Source of the DNA: Gammaproteobacteria bacterium
GTDB taxonomy: Bacteria > Pseudomonadota > Gammaproteobacteria > Chromatiales > Chromatiaceae
Assembly (NCBI GenBank): GCA_015490795.1
Contig: WFXD01000058.1
Span: forward strand, 1 to 35,176
Direction: 5' to 3'
Length of the DNA: 35,176 bases
Below the pieces are notes generated by a model. That model was not told the origin of the DNA. It did no database searches and saw only the letters and a program-made list of their open reading frames with translations. Numbering within the stretch: position 1 is the first letter of the stretch; each line of letters begins with the position of its first letter. Shown piece by piece: positions 8,495-20,811 of the stretch. A program made the translations under genes and the position numbers.

Positions 8495-10630
8495 ATGCCC
8501 GCCAGTGCCACAATCGAGTTGCTGATTATTGACCCATCACGGGATGATACAGAGTTACGCATTAGCACGTTGCGAAATGCGGGGCTGGCAGTCCATGCAA
8601 AAAGGGTTGATACGGCAGCTGCTCTTGTTGGCGCATTGGACAGCAGAGACTTTGATATTGTGCTCTATGCATGCGGTGATGAAAATATAGCGCTATCGGA
8701 TGCATATAAAATTTGTGAGCAAGCCAGGCAGGATCTCCCCTTTATTGTTCTGCACCAGGATGAAGTTGCCAATGAGGAGGAGGTAACCACGAATGAAAAA
8801 ATCAGAGATGTCATCCTCAAACATGATCTACAGCGCATCCAGCGCGTAGTAAAGCGTGAACTGCACGACCTTAGAATCCGGCAGCAACTTAAGGATCTGA
8901 AACGGCAGCTGCAGGAATCTGAGCGACGCTGTGCTTCACTGATAGAAAATTCCCAGAATGCGATTGCCTATATTCATGAGGGTATGCATATCGGTGCAAA
9001 TGCAGCTTATCTTGGCATGTTTGGTAATCTGGATGTGGAGGATATTGAAGGGTTGCCCATTTTGAATATGGTGGCACCCAGTGACCACAAAAGATTCAAA
9101 GCGTTTCTCCGCAGGTTGCCTGAAAAAAGTGGCGTTTCAGAACTGGATGTAAAGTGTCAAAGCAGCAGTGGCAACGCTTTTGATGCGCGGATGGAGTTTT
9201 CTAACGCCAGTATTGATGATGAGCCATGCACACAGATTATTATCCGTGATCAATCAAGGACAAATGAGCTTGAAGAAAAAATAGAGATTCTCAGCCTGCA
9301 AGATTCACAAACCGGCCTCCACAATCGCTCCTTCTTTTCAAAGAAGCTGGAGCAGGCGGCAGAGCATTTTCAGGAACCAAACGGGGCCTGTTCCCTTTTG
9401 TATATCAGTATTGATCAGTTTCAGGCAATCCAGAACACCGCAGGTATTGCTGCTGGCGATGCTATCCTTAAAACAGTTGCAGACATCCTCAGCCAAACGG
9501 TAGGTGAAGATGAGGTCCTGGCCCGCTTTGGTGAGCACTCATTTACCATATTGAGTCAATGTTCAAAAAAGGCTGAAGCTGAAGCGATTGCAGGGAGTAT
9601 ATGCAAAGCGCTGGACAGAGCATTCAAGGGGCAATCCAGGTATGATATTAATCCAACCTGTAGCATTGGAATTGCCTGTTCCGAGGGTGAAACCTCGATC
9701 CAGGATTTTATTGATCATGCCTACTTCTCCTGTGAAATAGCAAGAGGTAATGGTGGCAATCAGTTTGCAGTCTATGACCCCAATGCTGCGCTGCCTGGAT
9801 ATGAAGATGGTGCATCGCTGGATAGGGGACAAGAAGGCAGCACTGCCCAGAAACAGGAAGAGGTTGAAGAGGCAGTCATTGATGCAAGAGGGGTGGTTAA
9901 GGAGGCGCTGGCAAATGGCCAAATGCGCCTGGTTTATCAGCCTATAGTCAGTCTGCAAGGTGACTCCAGAGAGAACTACTCCGTCATGGTGCGCCTGCTC
10001 GACAGTCATGGTGGAGAGATAGATGCCGGCACGGTATTTGATAAGGCTGAAGTAAGCGAGTTAATGGTTGATGTTGATCGTTGGGTTGTCAAACATGCCA
10101 TTCGGGAGCTGACCCGGCAACGCAAAGAGGGACGAAAAATAAACCTCTTTGTTACGATCTCCAGTGCCAGCATTGTAGACCCATCCACACTGTTGATGGT
10201 TTGTGACAGCTTGCGCGAGGCGCAGGCGAAAGGTGCCTGGTTAACATTCCAGATTCGTGAAGCAGACCTGCGCGCACATACGCAGGAGGCCAAGAACCTT
10301 GTAAAAGGGCTGAAAAAAATCAAATGCCAAATTGCAGTAACACACTTTGGGTTAGCTCCAAAGCCAGAAGCCATTCTTAAACGCCTGCCAATTGATTTTG
10401 TAAAACTGGATGCCTCATTTCTGAAAGATTTGGCAACGCAACAGAAAAAGCAGGATGATCTGGCAGAGATTAACGCAAATATTCAGGATCATGGTATTAA
10501 AACCATTGCCACAGCCGTTGAGGATGCAAATAGCCTGGCTGTGTTGTGGACAGTGGGTATTAACTGCATTCAGGGCTATTTTTTTCAGGAGCCATCGGAG
10601 ACGATTGCTTTTGATTTTGGCAGCACTTGA
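8495..10630 (+). CDS. fimX: FimX-like c-di-GMP receptor (REC-PAS-degenerate GGDEF-degenerate EAL)
   Basis: The protein has 711 residues; Pseudomonas FimX has about 690 and the same domain order. Residues 1-125 are a receiver-like domain (IELLIIDPSRDD). About 140-265 is a PAS domain (IENSQNAIAYIHEG). About 270-430 is GGDEF-like and starts DSQTGLHNRSFFSKKLEQ, but the signature is GEHSF in place of GGDEF. About 470-705 is EAL-like, but EAL is SVM, the DDFG metal motif reads THFG, and the AEGVE glutamate is replaced (ATAVE). Neither cyclase nor phosphodiesterase activity is expected. FimX proteins bind c-di-GMP in such a dead EAL domain and promote PilB-driven pilus extension. The pilin operon lies on the other side of the epm genes. 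Confidence 0.88.
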   Translation: MPASATIELLIIDPSRDDTELRISTLRNAGLAVHAKRVDTAAALVGALDSRDFDIVLYACGDENIALSDAYKICEQARQDLPFIVLHQDEVANEEEVTTNEKIRDVILKHDLQRIQRVVKRELHDLRIRQQLKDLKRQLQESERRCASLIENSQNAIAYIHEGMHIGANAAYLGMFGNLDVEDIEGLPILNMVAPSDHKRFKAFLRRLPEKSGVSELDVKCQSSSGNAFDARMEFSNASIDDEPCTQIIIRDQSRTNELEEKIEILSLQDSQTGLHNRSFFSKKLEQAAEHFQEPNGACSLLYISIDQFQAIQNTAGIAAGDAILKTVADILSQTVGEDEVLARFGEHSFTILSQCSKKAEAEAIAGSICKALDRAFKGQSRYDINPTCSIGIACSEGETSIQDFIDHAYFSCEIARGNGGNQFAVYDPNAALPGYEDGASLDRGQEGSTAQKQEEVEEAVIDARGVVKEALANGQMRLVYQPIVSLQGDSRENYSVMVRLLDSHGGEIDAGTVFDKAEVSELMVDVDRWVVKHAIRELTRQRKEGRKINLFVTISSASIVDPSTLLMVCDSLREAQAKGAWLTFQIREADLRAHTQEAKNLVKGLKKIKCQIAVTHFGLAPKPEAILKRLPIDFVKLDASFLKDLATQQKKQDDLAEINANIQDHGIKTIATAVEDANSLAVLWTVGINCIQGYFFQEPSETIAFDFGST

Positions 10631-11012
10631 ATCGTGGGCTGAATATGCCCTTGCGGTCACTCCAAAAAACAGCGGCTGCCAGTTTTTTTGCACCTGCTGC
10701 CCACCACCTATCCACCGTGATGGTGCGTTTCTGATTGATCAGATGCAGCAGCGTTGCTGTGGGCTTTTTAATCCCGCATTGAGAAGCGATGTATCCGGGC
10801 ATAGCAAATAAACTCAAGCCAACCATTATCCCCTGCAACAGCTCTGAACCCACAGGCCGTGACCTGTGCGGCATTCTGCTCCCCCCCATTGTTAAATGCA
10901 GAGACATCTCTATCCAGCGGGCTGATGGGTTTTAGCGGGGGCGGCTGACAGGGTATCCTCCTCCTTGACATGGGTGTTGCCACTAAGCAGAATGGATATC
11001 TTTGATTTTCCT
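10631..11012. other. 382-bp intergenic stretch, no convincing gene
   Basis: This stretch lies between fimX and the first MITE-like element. It holds a possible terminator just after fimX and a minus-strand open stretch (about 10768-10980) whose translation (phrases such as ACGFRAVAGDNGWLEFICYAR) looks somewhat protein-like. That stretch has no start codon outside the mobile repeat and no family I recognise. It may be the remains of a gene broken by the repeat element. Confidence 0.4.
10664..10689. terminator. Possible terminator after fimX
   Basis: A run of six A, a GC-containing imperfect hairpin (CAGCGGCTGCCAG) and a run of seven T lie 34 bp after the fimX stop codon. The layout suits a bidirectional terminator, but the GC stem is short and mismatched. 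Confidence 0.35.
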
Positions 11013-11180
11013 CTAGGAGCCTGTCGGACTTAGGTGAATTGTAGCGAGGGAGTGGGAGAGTGAGCACAAATATTCCCGGTTTTGAGGCGCATAGTGGGCC
11101 TACGCAACGAAAAACCGGGGATATTTGAGCCGCTCTCCCACTTCCGCAGCCAGTTCATCCTAAGTCCGACAGGCTCCTAG
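11013..11180. repeat. MITE-like palindromic element, copy 1 (168 bp)
   Basis: The ends are a perfect 22-bp inverted repeat (starts CTAGGAGCCTGTCGGACTTA at 11013; mirror at 11159-11180). Inside the ends, a second pair of arms (GGGAGTGGGAGAGTGAGC and its near-complement, then ATTCCCGGTTTT with AAAACCGGGGAT) makes the whole element one long imperfect hairpin. It encodes no transposase. It is inverted relative to copies 2 and 3. It ends 17 bp before the ATG of the heme-SUMF1 gene, so that gene's promoter must lie within or beyond it. Confidence 0.85.
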
Positions 11181-11197
11181 TTATAGGCTTGATTTTG

Positions 11198-12322
11198 ATG
11201 CTGAATCCAGCTGCACCGTATAAGGTTGTGAAGCGCCTTGCTGGCAGATGCGTTCTGCTGCTCTGCTCATTGGTTTTAGTTGCTTCGATCTCTGTAGCAG
11301 CCGCTCCAGCGGTGCAGGAGGGGGAGCCGGCAGAGCTGCCTTTTCCGGTTGAGTCGGAGGCGGATATCCAGCAGGAGCGGATTGCAGACTATCTGGAAAC
11401 AGGTCAGCCCAACTGCGCCCTCTGTCATGCACAGCAGCAGCGCCCTGCCATAGATTACACGACCGATAAAGAGTGTCTGCAGTGCCACAATACAGACTAT
11501 AGCCAGCGTTTCCTGGATATTGATGAGCGCTATAAGGTGCCATTGGAGGATAGAGCCTACAAGGTGGCTCTGGCAAAGGCGGCCCCCTCCTCCCCACCGG
11601 TCAACATCGAGCGAAAGGCCCCTGAGGGTATGGTGCTGGTGCCTGCGGGTGAGTTTACTATGGGGACGGATGACTGGTGGCCAAAGTCCGGGCCGGCGCA
11701 CAAGAAGTATCTGCCTGACTACTACATCGATCTCTATGAAGTGACCAATGCCAAATACAAGCTCTTTGTTCAGGCCACCGGACGGCGCCTGCCGGATGAC
11801 TGGGTAAAGAGCAATAATGAGATCCCGGAGGGGATGGAGGATCATCCGGTTGTCTTTGTAAGCTGGCAGGATGCCAATGACTACTGCGAATGGGCTGGAA
11901 AACGCCTGCCAACCGAATATGAGTGGGAGAAGGCGGCAAGAGGCACCGACGGCAGGGTCTTTCCGTGGGGTGATGAATTCGACAAGAATAGGGCCAATAC
12001 CCCGCAGTACGGCCTGGGCAAGGCGATGAAGGTAGGCTCTTTTGAAAATGGAAGAAGCCCCTATGGCCTCTATGATATGGCGGGCAATGTCTTTGAATGG
12101 ACGGCGAGCTGGTACAAGGCCTACCCGGGCAATACCCACAAAGACCCCAATGAGGGAGAGACCTACCGGGTGGTGAAGGGCGGTTCCTGGTATGACTGCA
12201 CCTACTACAGATGCGGTATCAGTGCGCCAACCTACAACCGAATCTTCTTTCACCCAATGACAAAGAATTTCAGCTTTGGTTTTCGTTGCGTCCAGGATGT
12301 AAACAGAGATGATAGAGATTGA
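11198..12322 (+). CDS. Exported diheme cytochrome c-FGE/SUMF1 fusion protein
   Basis: The protein has 374 residues from the ATG at 11198; an in-frame TTG at 11189 is less likely. A signal peptide (hydrophobic CVLLLCSLVLVASISVAAA) sends it to the periplasm. Two c-type heme sites, CALCH and CLQCH, follow within about 30 residues of each other. From about residue 140 there is a complete SUMF1/formylglycine-generating-enzyme-like domain: PEGMVLVPAGEFTMGTD, YYIDLYEVTNAKY, GKRLPTEYEWEKAARGTDG, SPYGLYDMAGNVFEW and a final GFRC. Near the end, VVKGGSWYDCTYYRCG keeps a C-x4-C pair like the copper-binding catalytic cysteines of true FGEs, shifted by one residue. No sulfatase gene is nearby, so the substrate is unknown. 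The next gene is of the same type. Confidence 0.85.
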   Translation: MLNPAAPYKVVKRLAGRCVLLLCSLVLVASISVAAAPAVQEGEPAELPFPVESEADIQQERIADYLETGQPNCALCHAQQQRPAIDYTTDKECLQCHNTDYSQRFLDIDERYKVPLEDRAYKVALAKAAPSSPPVNIERKAPEGMVLVPAGEFTMGTDDWWPKSGPAHKKYLPDYYIDLYEVTNAKYKLFVQATGRRLPDDWVKSNNEIPEGMEDHPVVFVSWQDANDYCEWAGKRLPTEYEWEKAARGTDGRVFPWGDEFDKNRANTPQYGLGKAMKVGSFENGRSPYGLYDMAGNVFEWTASWYKAYPGNTHKDPNEGETYRVVKGGSWYDCTYYRCGISAPTYNRIFFHPMTKNFSFGFRCVQDVNRDDRD

Positions 12323-12443
12323 ACTGATGGCTTTAGAGGTACTTGTAAAACTCCGCAGGCGCTCCCTGGCGGCGTTAAAAACGGACTCAAAATGCTCATT
12401 TGCTGTGCGTAAACCCCGCTTTTTCACCAATTTCCGCCTTGCC

Positions 12444-13694
12444 ATGAACCACCTGCAAAGTTTTGCAAGCACCTGTTTACACAAGAGAAAATGTGCAGTT
12501 GGTCAGTTCCTGCAAAAAAGTTCTTTGAACCCGAAGGTGGCACTTTGTAGTCTGGTTGCTGCCTTAAGCCTTCATCAGACGGCTTATGCCGCATCGGATC
12601 TGGCAGCTGATCTGGATAATGGCAAGGCACTCTACACGAAGTACTGTTTCTATTGTCATGGCAAGGAGGGCCGGGGTGATGGTGCCGTTGCCATTGCCGT
12701 ACAGCCAAAGCCTGTCGATTTTGTGAACGACCAGGAGCGGATGAGCCGAAGCGATGCCGAGCTGATGAAGAGCATTGAAGAGGGCATTGTTCAGGATCCC
12801 GACTCCCGCATGTATATGCCCGCCTGGAAGGAGGTATTGAGCAGCGCGGGGCTGCGGGATGTACTGGCCTATGTCAGATTGCTTGCCGCACAGGGTGGAA
12901 AGCCGCCAGCGGATACCGGCAGAGAAGGGAGCGCTGTCAAACAGCAGGAGAAAGAGGCGGCACCGGCTCCCGATGATATGGTCTATATCCCTGCTGGTGA
13001 CTTTATTATGGGCAGTGATAAGGTGGACACGGATGCGATGGGCCTCAGGTTCGGCAGCACCCCCTATTACCTGAATGAGAAGCCCAGGCGCACGGTGACG
13101 CTGGATGCATACTATATCGACAAATATGAGACCACCAACCAGCAGTACAGTGAATTTGTAGCGGCCATGCAGGGCCGGGTAAGGATACCCCCGCCAGCGT
13201 ATTGGGAGCATGGCGTCTATGCAGAAGGGGAAGAGCACTTCCCGGTGCATACCGTGCATTGGTATGCGGCATCGGCATACTGTCGCTGGAGAGGCAAACG
13301 GCTGCCAACAGAGGCCGAATGGGAGAAGGCCGCCAGGGGCATTGATGGCAGAGAGTTCCCCTGGGGAGATGAGTACAGCCCGGACAAATCCAACAATCAA
13401 TCCAATTTTGGTGGCGTGATAGCGGTTGGCTCCTATGAAGAGGGAAAGAGTCCATACGGTCTTTATGATATGACAGGCAATGTGGCGGAGTGGGTTGATG
13501 ACTGGTATAAAGCCTATCCGGGCGGCGAGAGCCATAAGGATCCCAAGTACGGTGAACGCTACAAAGTGATACGCGGTGGCGGATGGGGTGGGATGGGGCA
13601 CTACAATCTGCCGCTCTACTACTCTACAACGCACCGTGAAAAAGGCATCCCGACAGATGCTTTTCGGGATGTTGGTTTTCGATGCGCCAAATAA
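12444..13694 (+). CDS. Exported monoheme cytochrome c-FGE/SUMF1 fusion protein
   Basis: The frame opens at 12309, but its first 45 codons are basic, unlike an export signal, and read like translated noncoding sequence. I use the ATG at 12444; a TTG at 12525 would give a tidy signal peptide (LNPKVALCSLVAALSLHQTAYA), and the start is uncertain. A cytochrome c domain follows: NGKALYTKYCFYCHGKEGRG holds the CxxCH heme site, and DSRMYMPAW supplies the likely distal methionine. After a charged linker comes a SUMF1 domain (MVYIPAGDFIMGSD, GKRLPTEAEWEKAARGIDG, SPYGLYDMTGNVAEW, GFRCAK). The region matching the catalytic cysteines reads GGGWGGMGHYN and has none, so FGE activity is not expected. It is probably cotranscribed with, and paralogous to, the gene before it. 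Confidence 0.82.
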   Translation: MNHLQSFASTCLHKRKCAVGQFLQKSSLNPKVALCSLVAALSLHQTAYAASDLAADLDNGKALYTKYCFYCHGKEGRGDGAVAIAVQPKPVDFVNDQERMSRSDAELMKSIEEGIVQDPDSRMYMPAWKEVLSSAGLRDVLAYVRLLAAQGGKPPADTGREGSAVKQQEKEAAPAPDDMVYIPAGDFIMGSDKVDTDAMGLRFGSTPYYLNEKPRRTVTLDAYYIDKYETTNQQYSEFVAAMQGRVRIPPPAYWEHGVYAEGEEHFPVHTVHWYAASAYCRWRGKRLPTEAEWEKAARGIDGREFPWGDEYSPDKSNNQSNFGGVIAVGSYEEGKSPYGLYDMTGNVAEWVDDWYKAYPGGESHKDPKYGERYKVIRGGGWGGMGHYNLPLYYSTTHREKGIPTDAFRDVGFRCAK

Positions 13695-13746
13695 CGCAGT
13701 AGCCCTCTAGGCTGCTTTTGTGTAAAAACAGCGTGAAAGGGAAAAA

Positions 13747-14691
13747 ATGCCAAATATAAAAAAAATTTGGGCTGCTGTTATGGCGATGCTGTTGACAGGA
13801 GCAGTGGGTGCTGCTGGAAAAGAGGATGCCAGCGTGGAGAGCCATTTGGCGCAGCAGGCCTGTTTGCAGATTGCCAAGCGGCTGGCCTCGGTCTATACGC
13901 GTGATTGCAGGTACAACAATGGCTTGGTAACCACGGGGCAATTTTCTGTAGAGGGCCGCCCGATTCTGGAGAAGGTCTACCCTCCACGTCCACCCAAAAA
14001 ACCCAGAGCACGCGTGATGCTCGTGGGAGGGATCCATGCCGATGAACTCAGTTCTATCAGCATCGTCTTCAAATGGATGCGCATTCTGGATAAGTATCAC
14101 TCCGGCCTGTTCCACTGGAAGGTGGTTCCGCTGCTTAACCCGGATGGCCTGTTCCAGGCAGGCCGCGCATTGCGGGTAAATGCCAATGGTGTCGATCTCA
14201 ACCGGAATTTTCCTGCCCCTGATTGGCAGGCAAATGCGCTGGAGGGCTACTGGATAAAGCGAACGGGGCGCAATCCAAGGCGTTATCCTGGCCCCTCGGC
14301 ACTGAGCGAGCCTGAAAGCCTCTGGCTGGCAAAAGAGATCGAACGTTTTCGTCCGGATGTCATTGTCGCTGTCCATGCCCCCTATGGCGTGGTGGATTTT
14401 GATGGCCCACCCAAAGGCCCCGGCAAACTGGGAAAACTCCATTTGAATCTGCTGGGCACCTACCCTGGTTCGCTGGGTAATTATGCCGGGCTGCAAAAAA
14501 ATATCCCGGTGGTGACGATTGAACTCAGGCATTCAGGGATTATGCCGCGCTCAAAAGAGATCAGACGTATCTGGATAGATCTGGTTCGTTGGGTGAAAAA
14601 CAATATCCCTAAAGATACGCCACCCGTTTATAAGGGGTTGCAGGCGTTTATGCAGGATATGGAAAAAACCGAACTACGGCGCAAAAACTGA
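13747..14691 (+). CDS. Exported M14-family zinc carboxypeptidase (MpaA-like murein peptide amidase type)
   Basis: The protein has 314 residues with a signal peptide (IWAAVMAMLLTGAVGAAG). Zinc ligands are H97 and E100 in GGIHADELSS and H210 in VAVHAPYG. Substrate-binding features NPDG and VDLNRNFP (R153) and the catalytic glutamate E259 in VVTIELRH complete an intact M14 active site. Related enzymes trim peptidoglycan peptides; MpaA itself is cytoplasmic, whereas this one is exported, so it probably acts on the sacculus or on released muropeptides. A ribosome site AAAGGGA lies 6 bases before the ATG. Its 3' end and the convergent L,D-transpeptidase gene were the original flanks of the accessory insert. 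Confidence 0.85.
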   Translation: MPNIKKIWAAVMAMLLTGAVGAAGKEDASVESHLAQQACLQIAKRLASVYTRDCRYNNGLVTTGQFSVEGRPILEKVYPPRPPKKPRARVMLVGGIHADELSSISIVFKWMRILDKYHSGLFHWKVVPLLNPDGLFQAGRALRVNANGVDLNRNFPAPDWQANALEGYWIKRTGRNPRRYPGPSALSEPESLWLAKEIERFRPDVIVAVHAPYGVVDFDGPPKGPGKLGKLHLNLLGTYPGSLGNYAGLQKNIPVVTIELRHSGIMPRSKEIRRIWIDLVRWVKNNIPKDTPPVYKGLQAFMQDMEKTELRRKN

Positions 14692-14696
14692 TTTTT

Positions 14697-14871
14697 CCAG
14701 GAGCCTGCCGGGTTTAGGATAATCTGGCTGCGGAAGTGGGAGAGCGGCTCAAATGTCCCCGGTTTTTCGTTGCACAGGCCCACTATCTATCTATGCGCCT
14801 CAAAACCGGGAACATTTGCGCTCACTCTCCCGCTCCCTCGTTACAATCCACCTAAGCCTGCAGGCTCCTGG
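14697..14871. repeat. MITE-like palindromic element, copy 2 (175 bp)
   Basis: The ends are CCAGGAGCCTGCCGGGTTTA and its near-complement ending GCAGGCTCCTGG, with the same internal arms as copy 1 in the opposite orientation. It starts 5 bp after the M14 peptidase stop codon and could act as a bidirectional terminator between convergent genes. Confidence 0.85.
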
Positions 14872-14881
14872 GTTCATAAAG

Positions 14882-14964
14882 CTATTGGTTGTTTCTGGCC
14901 AGTGGTGGCGTGCTTATTGTGTCAGTACCCTCATAGCCAAACCCCATCCCCTTCGCGTTTCCAG
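14882..14964 (-). pseudogene. 3'-end fragment of the L,D-transpeptidase gene
   Basis: This is a copy of the last 27 or so codons and the stop of the transpeptidase gene at 18286, made by the flanking duplication. An 8-bp deletion (CTCATAGCC here, CTCATAAACTATGCGCC in the intact gene) breaks its frame, which agrees with loss of function. Confidence 0.85.
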
Positions 14965-14973
14965 GGACAATAG

Positions 14974-15754
14974 GGGACAGACCACGATTAACCTGATATT
15001 TTCTCTTTCTATGCTAACAAAGATTGGGAGAAGGGTATGCCTCGTCGGGCAAGATTATCAATGGCTGGTATTCCATGGCATATCATTCAGCGCGGTAACA
15101 ACCGAGCCGCCTGTTTTTATGCAGATGAAGATTATCGGTTTTATCTGAGTACCCTAAAAGAACAGTCTGATATATATGGCTGCACGGTTCACTCATATGT
15201 TTTGATGACAAACCATGTTCACCTGTTGCTTACTCCAAAAAAGAAAGACAGTGCAGCACTGCTGATGAAGCACCTAGGGCAACGATATGTTCAATACATC
15301 AATCGTACGTATCAACGCAGTGGAACGCTTTGGGATGGTCGCTTCCGTTCATGTTTAACGCAGAGTGAAGAGTATGTGTTGTTATGCTACCGTTATATTG
15401 AACTGAATCCGGTAAGGGCAAATATGGTGGCGCATCCAAGAGAATATACATGGTCAAGCTATCTCGCAAATGCTGAGGGGAGAAAAAATGATCTGCTGAC
15501 CCCGCATGAAGAATATTTGAGAATTGATCGAAATGATCTGGGTCGGCGGAAAGCCTATAGGGGATTATTTAAAGCTCATGTTGATGAGGGGCTTGAGGAT
15601 CAGATTAGAGAAGCGACTAACGGGAATTATGTGCTAGGAAATACCCGTTTTCGAGAAGAAATTGCACAGGTATTAGGCAGGCGAGTGACGAGAGGGAAGG
15701 CGGGAAGACCACCAAAGAAGGTTGTAGTTTAATGGATAAACCGTGGTCTGTCCC
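14974..15754 (+). mobile_element. Complete RAYT element with REP-type ends
   Basis: Perfect 13-bp inverted ends, GGGACAGACCACG at 14974-14986 and CGTGGTCTGTCCC at 15742-15754, bracket a Y1 transposase gene with 50 bp of leader. Such short palindromic ends are typical of REP sequences served by REP-associated tyrosine transposases. Confidence 0.85.
15037..15732 (+). CDS. REP-associated tyrosine transposase (Y1/HUH family)
   Basis: The protein has 231 residues. The family opening MPRRARLSMAGIPWHIIQRG is followed by the HUH metal site H60-V-H62 in MTNHVHLLLTP and by CYRYIELNPVRANMV, whose Y120 is the likely nucleophile. GTLWDGRFRSCL is another conserved block. These enzymes cut and rejoin single-stranded DNA at REP hairpins. 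GAGAAGGGT directly before the ATG is a strong ribosome site. All catalytic residues are present, so the enzyme may be active. The 13-bp inverted ends around the gene and the deletion derivative at 17942 are the likely substrates. Confidence 0.93.
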   Translation: MPRRARLSMAGIPWHIIQRGNNRAACFYADEDYRFYLSTLKEQSDIYGCTVHSYVLMTNHVHLLLTPKKKDSAALLMKHLGQRYVQYINRTYQRSGTLWDGRFRSCLTQSEEYVLLCYRYIELNPVRANMVAHPREYTWSSYLANAEGRKNDLLTPHEEYLRIDRNDLGRRKAYRGLFKAHVDEGLEDQIREATNGNYVLGNTRFREEIAQVLGRRVTRGKAGRPPKKVVV

Positions 15755-15781
15755 TTAATATACTTAATATACTTAATATAG
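15755..15781. repeat. Three tandem 9-bp units next to the RAYT element
   Basis: TTAATATAC occurs twice and is followed by TTAATATAG, directly after the right REP end. The next bases (TCCCTTAAAT) repeat the TCCCTTAAT of the element border, so the tract looks like a small slippage or repair scar at the insertion edge. Confidence 0.7.
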
Positions 15782-15905
15782 TCCCTTAAATAAAACCTTG
15801 ACTGGATTATTTCCCTAGTTGTCTCTTGGTGATGGTAGAGGCATAGTTAGGCACTAGCTCAATTGATATTATGCCGTAAATTCAAAAAATAAGGATGGGG
15901 GAAGC

Positions 15906-17042
15906 ATGGAAATAAAGATCTGGAACAATGTCAGCAGTATATCCATTTTGATACTTGCTCTCGTTGGCAGTGTTAATGGCGGGGCGTTTGAGGATGGGGT
16001 TGCGGCTTATGAGCAGGGTGATTATGAGACAGCCCATCGCCTCTTGAGACCACTTGCTAAGCAAGGTGTTATAGGGGCTCAATACAATCTCGGCATCATG
16101 TACCATAATGGCCAAGGCATTCCACGGGACTATGCCAAGGCGGTTTACTGGTATCGCAAGGCCGCTGGGCAAGGATATGCCGATGCCCAGTATAACCTTG
16201 GAAACATGCACAACAATGGATATGGCGTGCCACAGGACTATGCCAAGGCAGCGCATTGGGTTCGCAAGGCTGCCGCGCAAGGTAATGTGATGGCCCAGAC
16301 CTTACTTGGCATCTTTTTCGATACAGGCCAAGGTGTACCACAGAACCATACTGAGGCGGCACGATGGTTTTACAAAGCTGCTGTGCAAGATCATGCAGAG
16401 GCCCAACTTCTACTTGGTGTCATTTACTTTGAGGGCCAAGGCGCACCGCAGAACCACACCGAGGCAGCACAATGGTTTCACAAAGCTGCTGTGCAAGATC
16501 ATGCAGGGGCTCAGGAGTTACTTGGCGCCATGTACCTCGAAGGTCAAGGTGTATCACAGAACTATACCAAGGCCGCACACTGGTTTCGCAAGGCTGCTGA
16601 GCAAGATCATGCCGATGCCCAGCACGATATTGGCCTCATGTACCTCAAAGGTCAGGGTGTGCCACAGGACTATGCCAAAGCCGCACACTGGTTTCACGAA
16701 GCTGCAGCGCAAGGTGTTGCCAGTGCTCAGTTCAGTCTTGGTATCATGTATGCCAATCACATGGGTGTTCCACAGGACTATGTCAAGGCTGCACACTGGT
16801 ATCGCAAGGCTGCAGAGCAAGGTTATGCTGATGCCCAGTACAATCTAGGCACTATGTATGCCAATGGTCAGGGTGTATTGCAGGACTATGTTTTAGCCCA
16901 TAAATGGTTCAATCTTGCGGCATTAGGCGGTACTGCAAACGCTGTCAAAAACCGAGACTTTATTACCAAGTTGATGACACCCTCCCAAGTTGTCAAAGCT
17001 CAGCGGTTAGCTCAGGAATGGCAACCAATAATAAGTGAATAA
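15906..17042 (+). CDS. Exported Sel1-repeat (TPR-like) protein
   Basis: The protein has 378 residues. A signal peptide (ISILILALVGSVNGG) is followed by EDGVAAYEQGDYETAHRLL and eight Sel1-like repeats of 36 residues with the consensus AQYNLGIMY-NGQGVPQDY-KAAHW-RKAA-QG, then a typical Sel1 cap (KWFNLAALGG) and a charged tail. Sel1 solenoids are protein-binding scaffolds. The repeats are also visible in DNA as a degenerate 108-bp period, which means the copy number could change by recombination; middle repeats 3-5 (VQDHAEAQ, VQDHAGAQ) are the most alike. A GGGGGAAGC ribosome site precedes the ATG. It lies within the accessory insert; its role is unknown. Confidence 0.85.
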   Translation: MEIKIWNNVSSISILILALVGSVNGGAFEDGVAAYEQGDYETAHRLLRPLAKQGVIGAQYNLGIMYHNGQGIPRDYAKAVYWYRKAAGQGYADAQYNLGNMHNNGYGVPQDYAKAAHWVRKAAAQGNVMAQTLLGIFFDTGQGVPQNHTEAARWFYKAAVQDHAEAQLLLGVIYFEGQGAPQNHTEAAQWFHKAAVQDHAGAQELLGAMYLEGQGVSQNYTKAAHWFRKAAEQDHADAQHDIGLMYLKGQGVPQDYAKAAHWFHEAAAQGVASAQFSLGIMYANHMGVPQDYVKAAHWYRKAAEQGYADAQYNLGTMYANGQGVLQDYVLAHKWFNLAALGGTANAVKNRDFITKLMTPSQVVKAQRLAQEWQPIISE

Positions 17043-17146
17043 TTGATACTCTGGGGCGCTGAAAGGAATATGTTGAATATGGAAAGCAACCTAATAATTG
17101 ATAGCGTGACGTGAGGTCGTTTATCTAACTATTATGATGAAAAAGC

Positions 17147-17857
17147 ATGTTTGATACACGCTGGGGAATATACATTGATATTGAGGGTTTTGGTTTTCAA
17201 TACAACCATACTATGAAGGCTTTGTTGCCATTAAACGCCCTGATGGAAGGAATCTATCAGATTGGTAGGGATAAATACAATGATGATGTCTCTCGTTTAT
17301 TCGCGCATCAGTTTGGCGATGGTTTTGTGGTTGTCAGCTGCTTTGAAGAAAAATCACTAGATCGTCCAGTGGCCATTGCCATTTCATTAATGAGGCATGT
17401 ATTAGCAGCGGGAGGACTTGCTAAAGCATCAGTCTCAGAAGGTGGATTCGAAGATATTAAAGGCTGTTATCCAAGAAATATAATCGATAATGAAAAAGAA
17501 GGTTCGGTGGCAATGGGGGCAGGTTTAATGACAATCATTCCAGTCATGGGTACTGCCCTAATAAATGCCGTTGCTCTTGATAAGCGTAGCCCTTCTGGGT
17601 CGCTGCTCACCATAGACTCAGTCAATGCAGTGCGCCTTTCAAAATGCTTTGCAAAACGAGAAATAGAAAATGGATTGGTATCTATCAATTGGTTAAAAGG
17701 CGATCAACGCCTAGTGTCAGAGATAAGTGCTGATGCAGGTTTAGAGAATCCCCCTGAGAAAGAGCGTGAATTGTTGTTAAGGAAGTACATCAGTAATAAT
17801 AAATTAAAATCCAGCTGGATTCGAACTACGTGCTATGAACAAGAGATATTTATTTAG
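17147..17857 (+). CDS. Uncharacterised protein, possibly a degenerate class III nucleotide-cyclase fold
   Basis: The protein has 236 residues, with no signal peptide and no clear membrane helix apart from a weak hydrophobic stretch near residue 125 (GAGLMTIIPVMGTALI). I do not recognise the family. Near the start, IYIDIEGFGF resembles the first metal-binding aspartate motif of adenylate/guanylate cyclases (D-I-x-G-F), and HQFGDGFVVVS, about 45 residues later, resembles their GDG hairpin. The usual substrate and transition-state residues (K, D/T, N, R) are not evident. It follows the Sel1 gene by 104 bp in the accessory insert. Function should be left open. Confidence 0.5.
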   Translation: MFDTRWGIYIDIEGFGFQYNHTMKALLPLNALMEGIYQIGRDKYNDDVSRLFAHQFGDGFVVVSCFEEKSLDRPVAIAISLMRHVLAAGGLAKASVSEGGFEDIKGCYPRNIIDNEKEGSVAMGAGLMTIIPVMGTALINAVALDKRSPSGSLLTIDSVNAVRLSKCFAKREIENGLVSINWLKGDQRLVSEISADAGLENPPEKERELLLRKYISNNKLKSSWIRTTCYEQEIFI

Positions 17858-17897
17858 GCTCCTCAGGGATATCTGTGGGTAATTTCCACCTTTAGCG

Positions 17898-17940
17898 CCA
17901 GATAATAGGGGGCAGACCACCAGATAATAGGGCGATAATA
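17898..17940. repeat. Degenerate REP half-copies left of the mini element
   Basis: CCAGATAATAGGG occurs twice (17898 and 17919 onward), and GGGGGCAGACCAC at 17908 is a one-base variant of the REP head that begins the neighbouring element. It looks like a partial, decayed extra REP copy. Confidence 0.6.
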
Positions 17941-17941
17941 G

Positions 17942-18016
17942 GGGACAGACCACGATTAACCTGATATTCTCTCTTTCTATGCTAACAAAGATTGGGATAA
18001 ACCCGTGGTCTGTCCC
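17942..18016 (+). mobile_element. 75-bp mini-RAYT element (transposase deleted)
   Basis: It carries the same 13-bp inverted ends as the complete element at 14974. Its first 56 bp match the leader of the complete element with one difference, then it jumps to the bases just before the right end. The junction falls at a GGA shared by both sides (15027-15029 and 15734-15736 in the full copy), so one deletion at microhomology removed the gene. Confidence 0.9.
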
Positions 18017-18036
18017 TTATTGCTCCCGCTCTACAT

Positions 18037-18093
18037 GGGTTGCAGGCGTTTATGCAGGATATGGAAAAAACCGAACTACGGCGCAAAAACTGA
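18037..18093 (+). pseudogene. 3'-end fragment of the M14 peptidase gene
   Basis: This duplicates the last 18 codons and stop of the gene ending at 14691, identical as far as can be read. It has no start and is not expected to be translated. Confidence 0.85.
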
Positions 18094-18098
18094 TTTTT

Positions 18099-18276
18099 CC
18101 AGGAGCCTGTCGGGTTTAGGGTGGACTGGCTGCGGAAGTGGGAGAGCGGCTCAAATATCCCCGGTTTTTCGTTGCACAGGCCCACTATCTATGCGCCTCA
18201 AAACCGGGAACATTTATTTGCGCTCACTCTCCCACTCCCTCTCGCTACAATCCACCTAAGCCCGACAGGCTCCTGG
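18099..18276. repeat. MITE-like palindromic element, copy 3 (178 bp)
   Basis: It has the same orientation and flanking bases (CCAG...CTGG) as copy 2, as expected if both come from the segmental duplication. It lies 9 bp after the transpeptidase stop codon (minus strand), where it could terminate transcription. Confidence 0.85.
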
Positions 18277-18285
18277 GTTCAAAAG

Positions 18286-19524
18286 CTATTGGTTGTTTCT
18301 GGCCAGTGGTGGCGTGCTTATTGTGTCAGTACCCTCATAAACTATGCGCCAAACCCCATCCCCTTCGCGTTTCCAGTATTGGCGCTTGTATGCATCGCCG
18401 CTGTAGTTGTTGCTGTTGTAGCGCTGGTTAAAGCGGACTACAACCAGCCCCTCCTCGCCTGGGTCTGAGAAGATGCTGAGGTCAGTGAGCTGGATCTCGA
18501 TCTGGGTCTTTGCCTTGTTAATGGCCTCTTTACGTGCCACCCAGTTTGCGTAATCATGCTTTCCGGCCTGGAATGATTGTGAGTAATTTGCTGCATATCG
18601 CGCAATATTGCGGCTCTCCCAGTCTCTGCGCCACTTCTCGATGGCATCCTCAAGCTCTTTGCGCTGCTGCTCAATGTGAAAGGGCGCCTGCCAATCCACC
18701 TTTTCAGCAAGGATGACAGGGGTTTTTCCAATATCAATCAGGGGGGTGAGCGTCTCAAAATCTGCATTTGCCAGCGCTACGCAGCCTTCGCTGGAGCGCG
18801 GTGCCCTGCTGTAGGTGTCGCTGGGGACGCCGTGAATCCAGATGCCATAACCTGTGCGTCCCAGCCGGTGATCCCACGGGTTTGGGTAATCAATCGGGAG
18901 GGCGCCTGCACCATAAAGGTCGGGGAGCTCTTTGCCGGAAATACGCTGTGAAATGAAATAGACGCCAACCGGGGTTTTCAGATCCCCTTCCACCTGTTTC
19001 GCGATACCATTTTTGCCAATAGAAGCATAAAAATTTGCGAGCAGGCGGGGGGTGCCGTTGTCATTCTCAAACAGATAGAGGCGGGACATCTCCAGATCGA
19101 CCACAATGATCCGTTTCTGGTCGGCCGACAGACGCAGCATGCTGGCTGGCAGGGTGCCCTGCTGGGGTTGTGAGAGGTGGCTGCGAAGGCGGCTTCGGGC
19201 TTCATCCCGCAGCTCGTTGATGCGCCCTCTGGCTTTGAGCGGAAGGTTGCCAAACTCGCCTATCGGCTGGCTTTTTGCCAGCAGCAGGTCGCCATATACC
19301 AGCTGGGCCAGGCGGAACTTCGGGTTTAACTCAACCAGTGTTTCAATGCTTTGCAGCGCCTCATCCAGATGGCGGTCACGGATATGGTTGAGTGTATCTA
19401 CCAGCAGCGCCTCCTCCTTGTACTGGAGCTGGTGGGGGTGTGCGTCCGGTTCAGGTGCGGCGCTTGCGTGCAGTGACCAAAGGCAGGTGATCAGAGTGGA
19501 GAGGTGAACAGCGCTCAATCTCAT
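18286..19524 (-). CDS. L,D-transpeptidase (YkuD) with Cds6-type C-terminal domain
   Basis: The protein has 412 residues. The signal peptide ends near HASA/APEP. About residues 40-120 are helical and TPR-like (VELNPKFRLAQLVYGDLLLAK). The YkuD domain spans about 138-275: RLYLFEND, KTPVGVYFI, IWIHGVP with H231, and SSEGCVAL with the catalytic C248; the arginine usual after the cysteine motif (SxGCxR) is alanine here. A charged helix leads to a C-terminal NTF2-like domain (about 320-400; VRFNQRYNSNNYSGDAYKRQ) of the kind called Cds6 in transpeptidase annotations. It would make or remodel 3-3 peptidoglycan crosslinks or anchor proteins to the wall. It overlaps the upstream TPR gene by 4 bp. Its last 30 codons lie in the direct repeat. 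Confidence 0.87.
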   Translation of the reverse strand: MRLSAVHLSTLITCLWSLHASAAPEPDAHPHQLQYKEEALLVDTLNHIRDRHLDEALQSIETLVELNPKFRLAQLVYGDLLLAKSQPIGEFGNLPLKARGRINELRDEARSRLRSHLSQPQQGTLPASMLRLSADQKRIIVVDLEMSRLYLFENDNGTPRLLANFYASIGKNGIAKQVEGDLKTPVGVYFISQRISGKELPDLYGAGALPIDYPNPWDHRLGRTGYGIWIHGVPSDTYSRAPRSSEGCVALANADFETLTPLIDIGKTPVILAEKVDWQAPFHIEQQRKELEDAIEKWRRDWESRNIARYAANYSQSFQAGKHDYANWVARKEAINKAKTQIEIQLTDLSIFSDPGEEGLVVVRFNQRYNSNNYSGDAYKRQYWKREGDGVWRIVYEGTDTISTPPLARNNQ

Positions 19525-20558
19525 TGCAGTGATACTTCTCGAACAATTTTCCAGCCTTCGCCATCCCTTTTCATGCGAAGATATTTTCGGCTCTCGTCGC
19601 TATAGGTGTTTGAGCGGTAGGTCTGCAAAAACTCAATCCTGGCCTCATCCTCGCTTATGGCAGTAATTTCAGGGTCCAGCACCTCAATCTCGATGAAGCG
19701 CGGTTTGGCGATACGCTGCTTGCGCTGCTGCACCCATGCCGTCCGGGAGAGGCCGCGTGATGGCTTGAATTTTGGGTGGTAGTGGCTCAGGTAACCTTCG
19801 ATATCCTTGTTGGACCACGCCTGCGCCCATTGGCGCGCAGCGGAGAGAATGCCCTGCTCGAACTCTGATGCCGCACCCTCTGTCCCATCGGACTCATCTT
19901 CCATCAGCATGGCCAGTTCGGCATCCTCCTCTTCAACGACCGGGGCAGCTGCCTTCGCTGCGGCTGGGGCTGCTGTGGGCGCGGGCTGGGTTTTGGCAGC
20001 CGGAGCGGAGGCTGCTGCCGTGGGTTGATGCGATGCGTTATTGATTGTGCCAACAGAGAAGAGCTCGCTCATCAGTGCCAGCTTGTCGCGTGCGGCGGCA
20101 TTCTCTTTGTCCAGTGACAGCGCGTGGTTGTAGGCGTCGGCGGCCATCATGGCGTAGATATTGCCAAGGTTTTCATGCGCTGTGGCATAACTTGGATGGG
20201 TGGTGATGGCGGACTGTAGCGCCTTGCGGGCGTCATCGAACCGCCCAAGTGCAGAGTAGGATACGGCCAGATTGTTGTAAGGTTCAGGCAGCTCCGGATA
20301 GTCTTTGGTGAGTGCTTCGAATATCTTGATCGCCGCTTCCAGTCTGTCCTGATTCACCAGGATCAATCCTTTAAGAAAGCGCGCCTCGGCGTGGTCAGGA
20401 TTGGATGCCAGAAAGTGGTCAAGCTGCTTTATGGCCTTGTCTGGATGCCCCTGTTCCACCAGGGTTTTAGCCGCGTTCAGAGCATCTTGCTCACTACTTA
20501 TGCTTATGGCGGGGGTGGCTATAAAAGCTATCAGTACAACTAAGAGTGTGCGTAACAT
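19521..20558 (-). CDS. Exported TPR protein with Cds6/NTF2-like C-terminal domain
   Basis: The protein has 345 residues. The signal peptide (MLRTLLVVLIAFIATPAISI) is followed by about four TPR units (HPDKAIKQLDHFLASNPDHAEARFLKG, LPEPYNNLAVSYSALGRFDDARKAL, SYATAHENLGNIYAMMA). An Ala/Pro-rich linker (about 183-220) leads to a C-terminal domain (about 235-345; WAQAWSNKDIEGYLSHYHPKF, FLQTYRSNTYSDESRKYLRM). This domain resembles the C-terminus of the transpeptidase encoded immediately downstream, and the two genes overlap by 4 bp. The pair is probably one functional unit in the periplasm, with the TPR protein as scaffold or substrate recruiter. That role is inferred. Confidence 0.8.
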   Translation of the reverse strand: MLRTLLVVLIAFIATPAISISSEQDALNAAKTLVEQGHPDKAIKQLDHFLASNPDHAEARFLKGLILVNQDRLEAAIKIFEALTKDYPELPEPYNNLAVSYSALGRFDDARKALQSAITTHPSYATAHENLGNIYAMMAADAYNHALSLDKENAAARDKLALMSELFSVGTINNASHQPTAAASAPAAKTQPAPTAAPAAAKAAAPVVEEEDAELAMLMEDESDGTEGAASEFEQGILSAARQWAQAWSNKDIEGYLSHYHPKFKPSRGLSRTAWVQQRKQRIAKPRFIEIEVLDPEITAISEDEARIEFLQTYRSNTYSDESRKYLRMKRDGEGWKIVREVSLQ

Positions 20559-20811
20559 GTTAATTGTCGGAGCCTTGATTTAGCGAGTCTGAAACGCTTG
20601 ATTATACCCATTTGGCGGTATCTGTGACCACAATTAAATTCTATCGATGGTTTGAGATCAAGTATAGATTAAAAGTTAAGGTATTGATTTGAATGGGCTA
20701 ATAAAAACATGCCTGCAATGTACCGGATGCAGGGTCAACTGCATTAATAGCTGGCCCACACCCTCTTTTTTGATTAAGCTGTAGCGCGAGCCAATAAGCC
20801 TGCGGTTGTGG

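Follow-up and report, generated by a model that had tools for sequence, protein, structure and literature searches.

A 3,072-bp block of foreign DNA was found between the convergent genes for an M14 zinc carboxypeptidase and an L,D-transpeptidase in a Gammaproteobacteria bacterium of the family Chromatiaceae (assembly GCA_015490795.1, contig WFXD01000058.1, positions 1 to 35,176; this whole stretch is hereafter called the window). It contains a Y1 transposase element together with its miniature and, between these two, genes for a Sel1-repeat protein and a cyclase-like protein; two direct-repeat copies (330 and 340 bp) derived from its target site enclose the block. The element carries terminal inverted repeats (TIRs) and appears to belong to the TIR-associated tyrosine transposases (TIRYTs). 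The locus is best read, at a probability of about 0.6, as an insertion with long target duplication, in which the repeat would have been made by recombination or repair and TIRYT ends lie at or near both joints.

Structure of the locus

The two repeat copies are 92% identical, and the longest exact stretch common to both is 73 bp, which is far beyond chance; the long flank duplication claimed in an earlier, sequence-only reading of this DNA was thereby confirmed. Each copy comprises the final 57 bp of the M14 peptidase gene, a miniature inverted-repeat transposable element (MITE) of about 175 bp, and the tail of the L,D-transpeptidase gene (Table 1). This composition, like the Sel1 gene in the insert, had been named in the same reading and was borne out when the window proteins were searched with Pfam and NCBIfam profiles (E up to 0.01), Pfam returning PF00246 for the peptidase, YkuD and Cds6_C for the transpeptidase, and Sel1 repeats for the third gene. 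The MITE-like palindrome noted there is indeed a MITE in both copies, but it is an unrelated multicopy element and not part of the TIRYT.

Both host genes survive because the left repeat copy completes an intact peptidase gene and the right copy completes an intact transpeptidase gene. The remaining gene tails, that of M14 at the right and that of the L,D-transpeptidase at the left, are dead fragments, and the latter has an 8-bp deletion relative to the right copy and to a congener. At 14964 the left copy stops next to the left element end, which forms the left joint, and the right copy begins at 18037, so that the right joint lies 10-14 bp beyond the end of the miniature element. The ends of the insert are thus those of a tyrosine-transposase element, as had been proposed. 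The outer inverted repeats are real but less perfect than the near-perfect 23 bp given before, with a 20/23 match (14964-14986 against 18004-18026) and a reported core of 19 nt at 95%.

Empty sites in related genomes

Of five congeners, four have the peptidase and L,D-transpeptidase genes side by side, the aligned parts being separated by about 80 bp at most. In none of the four does the junction contain a MITE, an insert or a duplication; in the fifth (G004) the query was without match. The comparison was made between congeners with 76-87% DNA identity over the peptidase gene, and not between strains of one species. Because the genes are adjacent without the insert in these relatives, the earlier view that they were adjacent and convergent before the insert came in is correct, and on this comparison both the insertion and the duplication are derived in the present lineage. 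Of the empty site with one repeat copy that the sequence-only reading had suggested looking for in relatives, the single target is present in the four congeners, but its MITE part is absent there. Two marks of an insertion with long target duplication, an empty related site and a long target-derived repeat with whole flanking genes, were found.

Foreign origin of the insert

The insert (14965-18036) was found once in its genome, a search of which had been suggested earlier as a check. The 13-bp end motif has four exact copies in the genome, all four inside the insert; with one mismatch, four further places were found outside the insert, against seven for a reversed control pattern. On the single occurrence and the confinement of the exact end motifs, the insert is an acquired foreign block. 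The cyclase-like gene is present in 1 of 194 genomes of the family, and at E up to 1e-30 the Sel1 protein had a match in only one of the five congeners (42% identical). The G+C content is 0.40-0.44 over the transposase and cyclase genes and 0.47-0.61 in windows covering 12000-14600 and 18400-20600; that of the Sel1 gene comes closer to the host value, and the stretch 20400-20800 is also low.

Type of the transposase element

The transposase translation (231 residues) carries TNHVH, with the HUH motif NHVH, and the Y motif YIELNP, both listed for TnpAY1 subclass 2.1 (PMC6006769). The gene is flanked by TIRs of the consensus GGGGWSAS: GGGGACAG occurs in the left TIR of either element, full or miniature, and the right TIRs read AGGGACAG, one base off. 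Against the profile REP_Tyr_transpos (NF047646) the protein scored 68.5 bits, under the curated cut-off of 80. By these sequence features the transposase fits the TIR-associated TIRYT group and not the REP-associated tyrosine transposases (RAYTs), and the RAYT-type label of the sequence-only reading was given up. RAYTs share the HUH/Y1 superfamily with the window element and differ in that the window transposase falls below their equivalog cut-off and its ends are TIRs. The mini element noted before is an internally deleted copy of the transposase element, with 67 left-end bases at 96% identity joined to the right end and the middle removed. Some part of the element has a DNA match in 51 of the 194 family genomes, and similar ends recur, often clustered, in the loci read from them.

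TIRYTs are described in PMC3733652 as TIR-associated tyrosine transposases with the end consensus GGGGWSAS, and PMC6006769 assigns most of them to TnpAY1 subclass 2.1, which has no association with REP sequences. So far as these descriptions go, the window element is like the subclass in its Y1 transposase with NHVH and YIELNP, its inverted ends with GGGGACAG and its miniature derivatives, and its protein has 231 aa against a median of 238 (PMC6006769, PMC3733652). It may differ from the subclass in the W motif, since the expected place, located without alignment to the subclass, reads LWDG (WD), whereas the listed forms are W[EQ] or FQ. Only Y1_Tnp was matched in the transposase by Pfam at E up to 0.01; a C-terminal helix-turn-helix-like domain is listed as a TIRYT feature. 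Cargo and long flank duplications are not described for the group in the accessible parts of the same two papers. Excision of REPINs is treated in PMC3116915.

Cargo genes

Neither Pfam nor NCBIfam gave a match (E up to 0.01) for the product of 17147-17857. Its predicted model (mean pLDDT 82) matches the fold of class III adenylyl and guanylyl cyclases (Foldseek best E 8e-6, probability 1.00), and the TM-score by query length is only 0.37-0.47, below 0.5, over the 32 matches with E up to 0.001. On the model the protein may be called, in keeping with the earlier name "cyclase-like", class III nucleotide-cyclase-like. When seven cyclase-like sequences were aligned, D11 and D58 were invariant; we take these to be metal-binding aspartates.

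Relatives of the cyclase-like protein (41-77% identical) were found by a pattern-based scan at six loci in scattered genomes, namely a Thiohalomonas metagenome-assembled genome (MAG; 77%), two Halomonas (69%), a Pseudomonadales MAG (63%), a Burkholderiales MAG (44%) and a Nitrospirae MAG (41%). Neither a TIRYT nor a Sel1 match lies within the fetched flanks of the six loci, and the cargo was therefore not seen as a conserved unit. Against plasmid and phage collections the protein gave nothing at E up to 1e-5. In these bacteria the gene occurs singly (L102-L107); in Halomonas and the Pseudomonadales MAG it stands among short same-strand open reading frames (ORFs), and in Thiohalomonas it is one small ORF from a large gene that is presumably ATPase-like. 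An integron-like or defence-island setting is possible for it. No restriction-modification match was obtained among the three insert proteins with Pfam or NCBIfam; such cargo is typical of the published cases of long target duplication and perhaps not defining.

MITE copies and the history of the repeat

The MITE is palindromic, mostly 168 bp long, and present in at least 40 places in the genome (40 of 131 candidates scored), including 11015-11178 of the window and contigs C5, C12, C17 and C103 of G000; several contigs end in a MITE, and the element was also found in another genus of the family (G017). A CTAT expansion is common to both MITEs of the repeat and was seen in none of 37 other aligned copies, and a few further sites are shared, some of which are present in other copies too. 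Because of the shared expansion and these sites, the two MITEs are taken as sisters on the alignment.

The two repeat copies differ by substitution at 9 of 171 aligned positions within the MITE and at none of the 154 elsewhere (Fisher p 0.004), and the MITE alignment places ten private substitutions in the repeat copies. The confinement of substitutions to the MITE would mildly favour the joining of two alleles from non-identical chromosomes, because the dead tails of a repeat formed on one chromosome should drift like the MITE, and the gene tails of separate alleles would have been kept by selection until they were joined.

Duplication driven by the MITE was rejected, since none of 32 other MITE loci shares flanks with another at E up to 1e-4; these were 31 fetched loci and window 11015-11178, some cut by contig ends, of the at least 40 places. 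Gene conversion of the MITE from other copies is unsupported, as five of the eight private substitutions of the left copy occur in none of the 37 others. L073 and L086, two of the other MITE copies, have the adjoining 15 bp in common.

Direct repeats at other TIRYT loci

TIRYT loci were scanned twice for direct repeats. The first scan, mostly with 1.5-kb flanks, covered 28 loci including the window (five more were skipped for short flanks) and 26 more (three skipped), and repeats of at least 60 bp across the transposase were found at the window, L037, L042, L048, L059, L100, L129 and L130. The second scan took in 49 loci, the window among them, with flanks extended wherever the contigs were long enough; the loci are of mixed TIR type and not all have the GGGACAGACCACG end, and L142-L144 were dropped as smaller versions of L165-L167. 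A repeat was scored from 100 bp and 85% identity upward, abutting being defined as within 150 bp of the gene. They span the gene in 7/49 loci and abut it in 4/49, or, with the window excluded, in 6/48 and 3/48. The control, 20 windows from 11 of the same genomes, gave 520 overlapping pseudo-loci, of which 14 were spanned and 1 abutted, all from one window. Counted by window, spanning repeats amount to 6/48 against 1/20 in the controls (p 0.66); p values of 0.002 (abutting) and 0.004 (spanning) were obtained with the pseudo-loci counted as independent, which they are not. The case rate is biased upward, as L138, L139, L140, L141 and L148 were chosen after a first-scan repeat, G137 having weak ones. 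L162 was scored on a wrong transposase match, and its 188-bp identical repeat beside a transposase fragment stands outside the count.

TIRYT ends abut long direct repeats in G167 (476 bp) and G137 (612 bp). The G167 repeat (L138:4009-6948; 97%) is the 5′ half of a PEP-CTERM gene ending at a TIR, and its right copy abuts a TIRYT element; the gene between the repeats also lies near the same PEP-CTERM gene in G117 and G137, which makes G167 no more than a partial parallel. The repeat in G137 (89%) is a diverged paralogous PEP-CTERM gene, and that of G153 is an apparently multicopy gene, which we assume to encode an Rpn-type nuclease. Since the difference by window is not significant and each of the three other abutting cases has an ordinary explanation or a partial one, duplication by the transposase is not shown by the data: long repeats are not clearly more frequent at TIRYT loci than in the controls, and the transposase as their maker is not supported. 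No clean TIRYT empty sites were seen in the match listings for the genera of G198 and G143, with no further alignment made. Direct repeats of 1,125 bp (99.5%) at L161 (G056) and 1,295 bp (100%) at L148 (G434) span a TIRYT-like gene and are possibly copies of insertion sequences (ISs).

Origin of the insertion

We infer that a foreign block entered the junction of the M14 and L,D-transpeptidase genes and that the 330 bp lying between the joints came to stand on either side of it. Because the joints are at or near TIRYT ends, it was probably these that set or exposed the termini of the incoming DNA. The duplication most likely arose by recombination or break repair between two non-identical chromosome copies, and not as a transposase target-site duplication. 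Under the preferred route, each gene tail would have received one of two related elements, 330 bp apart, and an unequal exchange between these would join two alleles and restore both genes. A later exchange between the two repeat copies would be predicted to delete the insert, with a single copy staying behind. Between the two possibilities named in the sequence-only reading, trapping of the block by recombination fits better than movement of cargo by a RAYT, because the cargo was not seen travelling as a unit and repeats at TIRYT loci are not clearly commoner than in controls.

Several points weigh against an origin by recombination or repair. The right MITE is closer to some other copies (90.4%) than to the left MITE (88.5%), which is due to the eight private substitutions of the left copy, and the nearest copy of the left MITE is the right one. 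The indels of the repeat are not confined to the MITE (four inside, two outside), and the restriction of substitutions to the MITE could reflect a mutable hairpin. The 14-bp filler at the right joint matches neither flank convincingly, a 9-bp match within the repeat being reached by 143 of 5000 shuffles and a 7/14 in-register match to M14 sequence by 273 of 5000, both weak. No match to a Ku gene was found in this genome; classical end joining is therefore unlikely, and end joining by Ku was rejected. The known examples considered carry restriction-modification genes or a whole IS, and the cargo here is neither.

A bare 330-bp tandem duplication formed first, with the insert entering later near its junction, would give the same final structure, and the palindrome of the MITE is placed close to the repeat's midpoint. 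This order of events is unlikely, as the insertion would have to fall within a few bases of the junction, and the 32 other MITE loci (E up to 1e-4) offer no instance of a shared flank.

A small probability is given to movement of the whole block, from the left TIR to the right TIR of the miniature, by the TIRYT transposase as a composite single-strand transposon whose insertion made the long duplication. The TIRYT ends at both edges of the insert with their 20/23 inverted match, the intact transposase ORF and the repeats abutting TIRYT ends in G167 and G137 would agree with it. However, the insert does not recur as a unit in its genome, and no TIRYT or Sel1 match lies in the flanks fetched for the six loci with cyclase relatives. 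Repeats abut only 3/48 other loci, with 5/48 preselected, and spanning repeats do not differ from controls by window; moreover, those of G137 and G153 are a diverged or apparently multicopy paralogue, and the G167 gene is likewise placed in two relatives. A RAYT as cargo transposon was rejected on the same scans (p 0.66 by window). That TIRYTs in general mobilise host or foreign genes between a full and a miniature element, with insertion duplicating hundreds of target bases, is very doubtful; such an outcome of single-strand transposition is not described for the family in the accessible parts of PMC3733652 and PMC6006769.

An assembly or strain-mixing artefact, in which two strain variants were joined in one contig, is improbable: the genome is a draft of 125 contigs, several of which end within MITE copies, but both repeat copies have private differences, neither of the new joints falls in the MITE, the end repeat, at 67 bp, is short, and the reported contamination of the genome is 0.21%.

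Relation to known insertions

The locus is a clear case of foreign genes entering between convergent genes, neither of which was broken because the target was duplicated. Nobusato et al. (2000), as cited in PMC11708052, PMC3031569 and PMC1643837, is reportedly the source for insertion with long target duplication, a precedent left unnamed in the sequence-only reading. In PMC3031569 and PMC1643837, inserts of restriction-modification genes are flanked by long, variable target duplications. Like the window, they hold foreign genes between long direct target duplications and were recognised by means of an empty relative; unlike them, the window insert is bounded by TIRYT ends, carries Sel1 and cyclase-like cargo and was compared across congeners. 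In P. fluorescens SBW25, a laboratory event termed Dup-IS-Dup placed an IS481 copy at the junction of a 59,943-bp duplication (PMC11708052). As in the window, mobile-element DNA stands at the junction of two copies of a duplicated segment, whereas 59,943 bp surround one IS481 copy there and 330 bp surround a 3.07-kb block with cargo here. According to that paper, no target-site duplication was formed, the IS is readily lost with the duplication, and insertion into breaks is suggested for the IS; for restriction-modification inserts, attack on the target by the enzymes or, alternatively, existing breaks are considered (PMC11708052).

Among the matches listed in a literature search (titles and abstract starts), no report combined RAYT or TIRYT ends, cargo and a long target duplication. 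The event is a further example of a known insertion type, its unusual feature being the TIRYT ends. It extends the known pattern beyond restriction-modification genes, links that pattern to TIRYT element ends and predicts clean loss of the insert between the repeats, and it does not show TIRYT elements carrying cargo.

Annotation of the window

The features of the locus are compiled in Table 1.

Table 1. Positions of the insert, its repeats and the flanking genes in the window
Feature	Position	Strand	Support
M14 zinc carboxypeptidase gene, intact; last 57 bp in left repeat	13747..14691	+	PF00246 1.6e-14; ORF
Left direct-repeat copy: M14 tail, MITE, dead L,D-transpeptidase tail fragment with 8-bp deletion	14635..14964	+	
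MITE, left copy; private changes, CTAT x3	14697..14871	not assigned	
Acquired insert, one place in genome	14965..18036	+	Empty sites in 4/5 congeners
Left TIR of TIRYT element, GGGGACAG motif	14966..14986	+	
TIRYT-type Y1 transposase, 231 aa, ORF intact, NHVH and YIELNP	15037..15732	+	PF01797 1.6e-12
Right TIR of full TIRYT element	15738..15757	-	
Sel1-repeat protein gene (cargo)	15906..17042	+	PF08238 4.2e-88
Class III nucleotide-cyclase-like protein gene (cargo; predicted)	17147..17857	+	Foldseek best E 8e-6, probability 1.00
Miniature TIRYT element with internal deletion; its right TIR forms the right end of the insert	17934..18022	+	
14-bp filler between element end and right repeat	18023..18036	not assigned	
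Right direct-repeat copy: dead M14 tail, MITE, tail of intact L,D-transpeptidase gene	18037..18376	+	
MITE, right copy; CTAT x2	18099..18276	not assigned	
L,D-transpeptidase gene (YkuD and Cds6_C), intact	18286..19524	-	Pfam; ORF

An Rfam search of 10500-20000 returned nothing at gathering thresholds. At 11189-13694 of the window, two adjacent genes with similar parts, which we take to be formylglycine-generating-enzyme-like, share a diverged direct repeat (65%), and both genes were matched in congeners.

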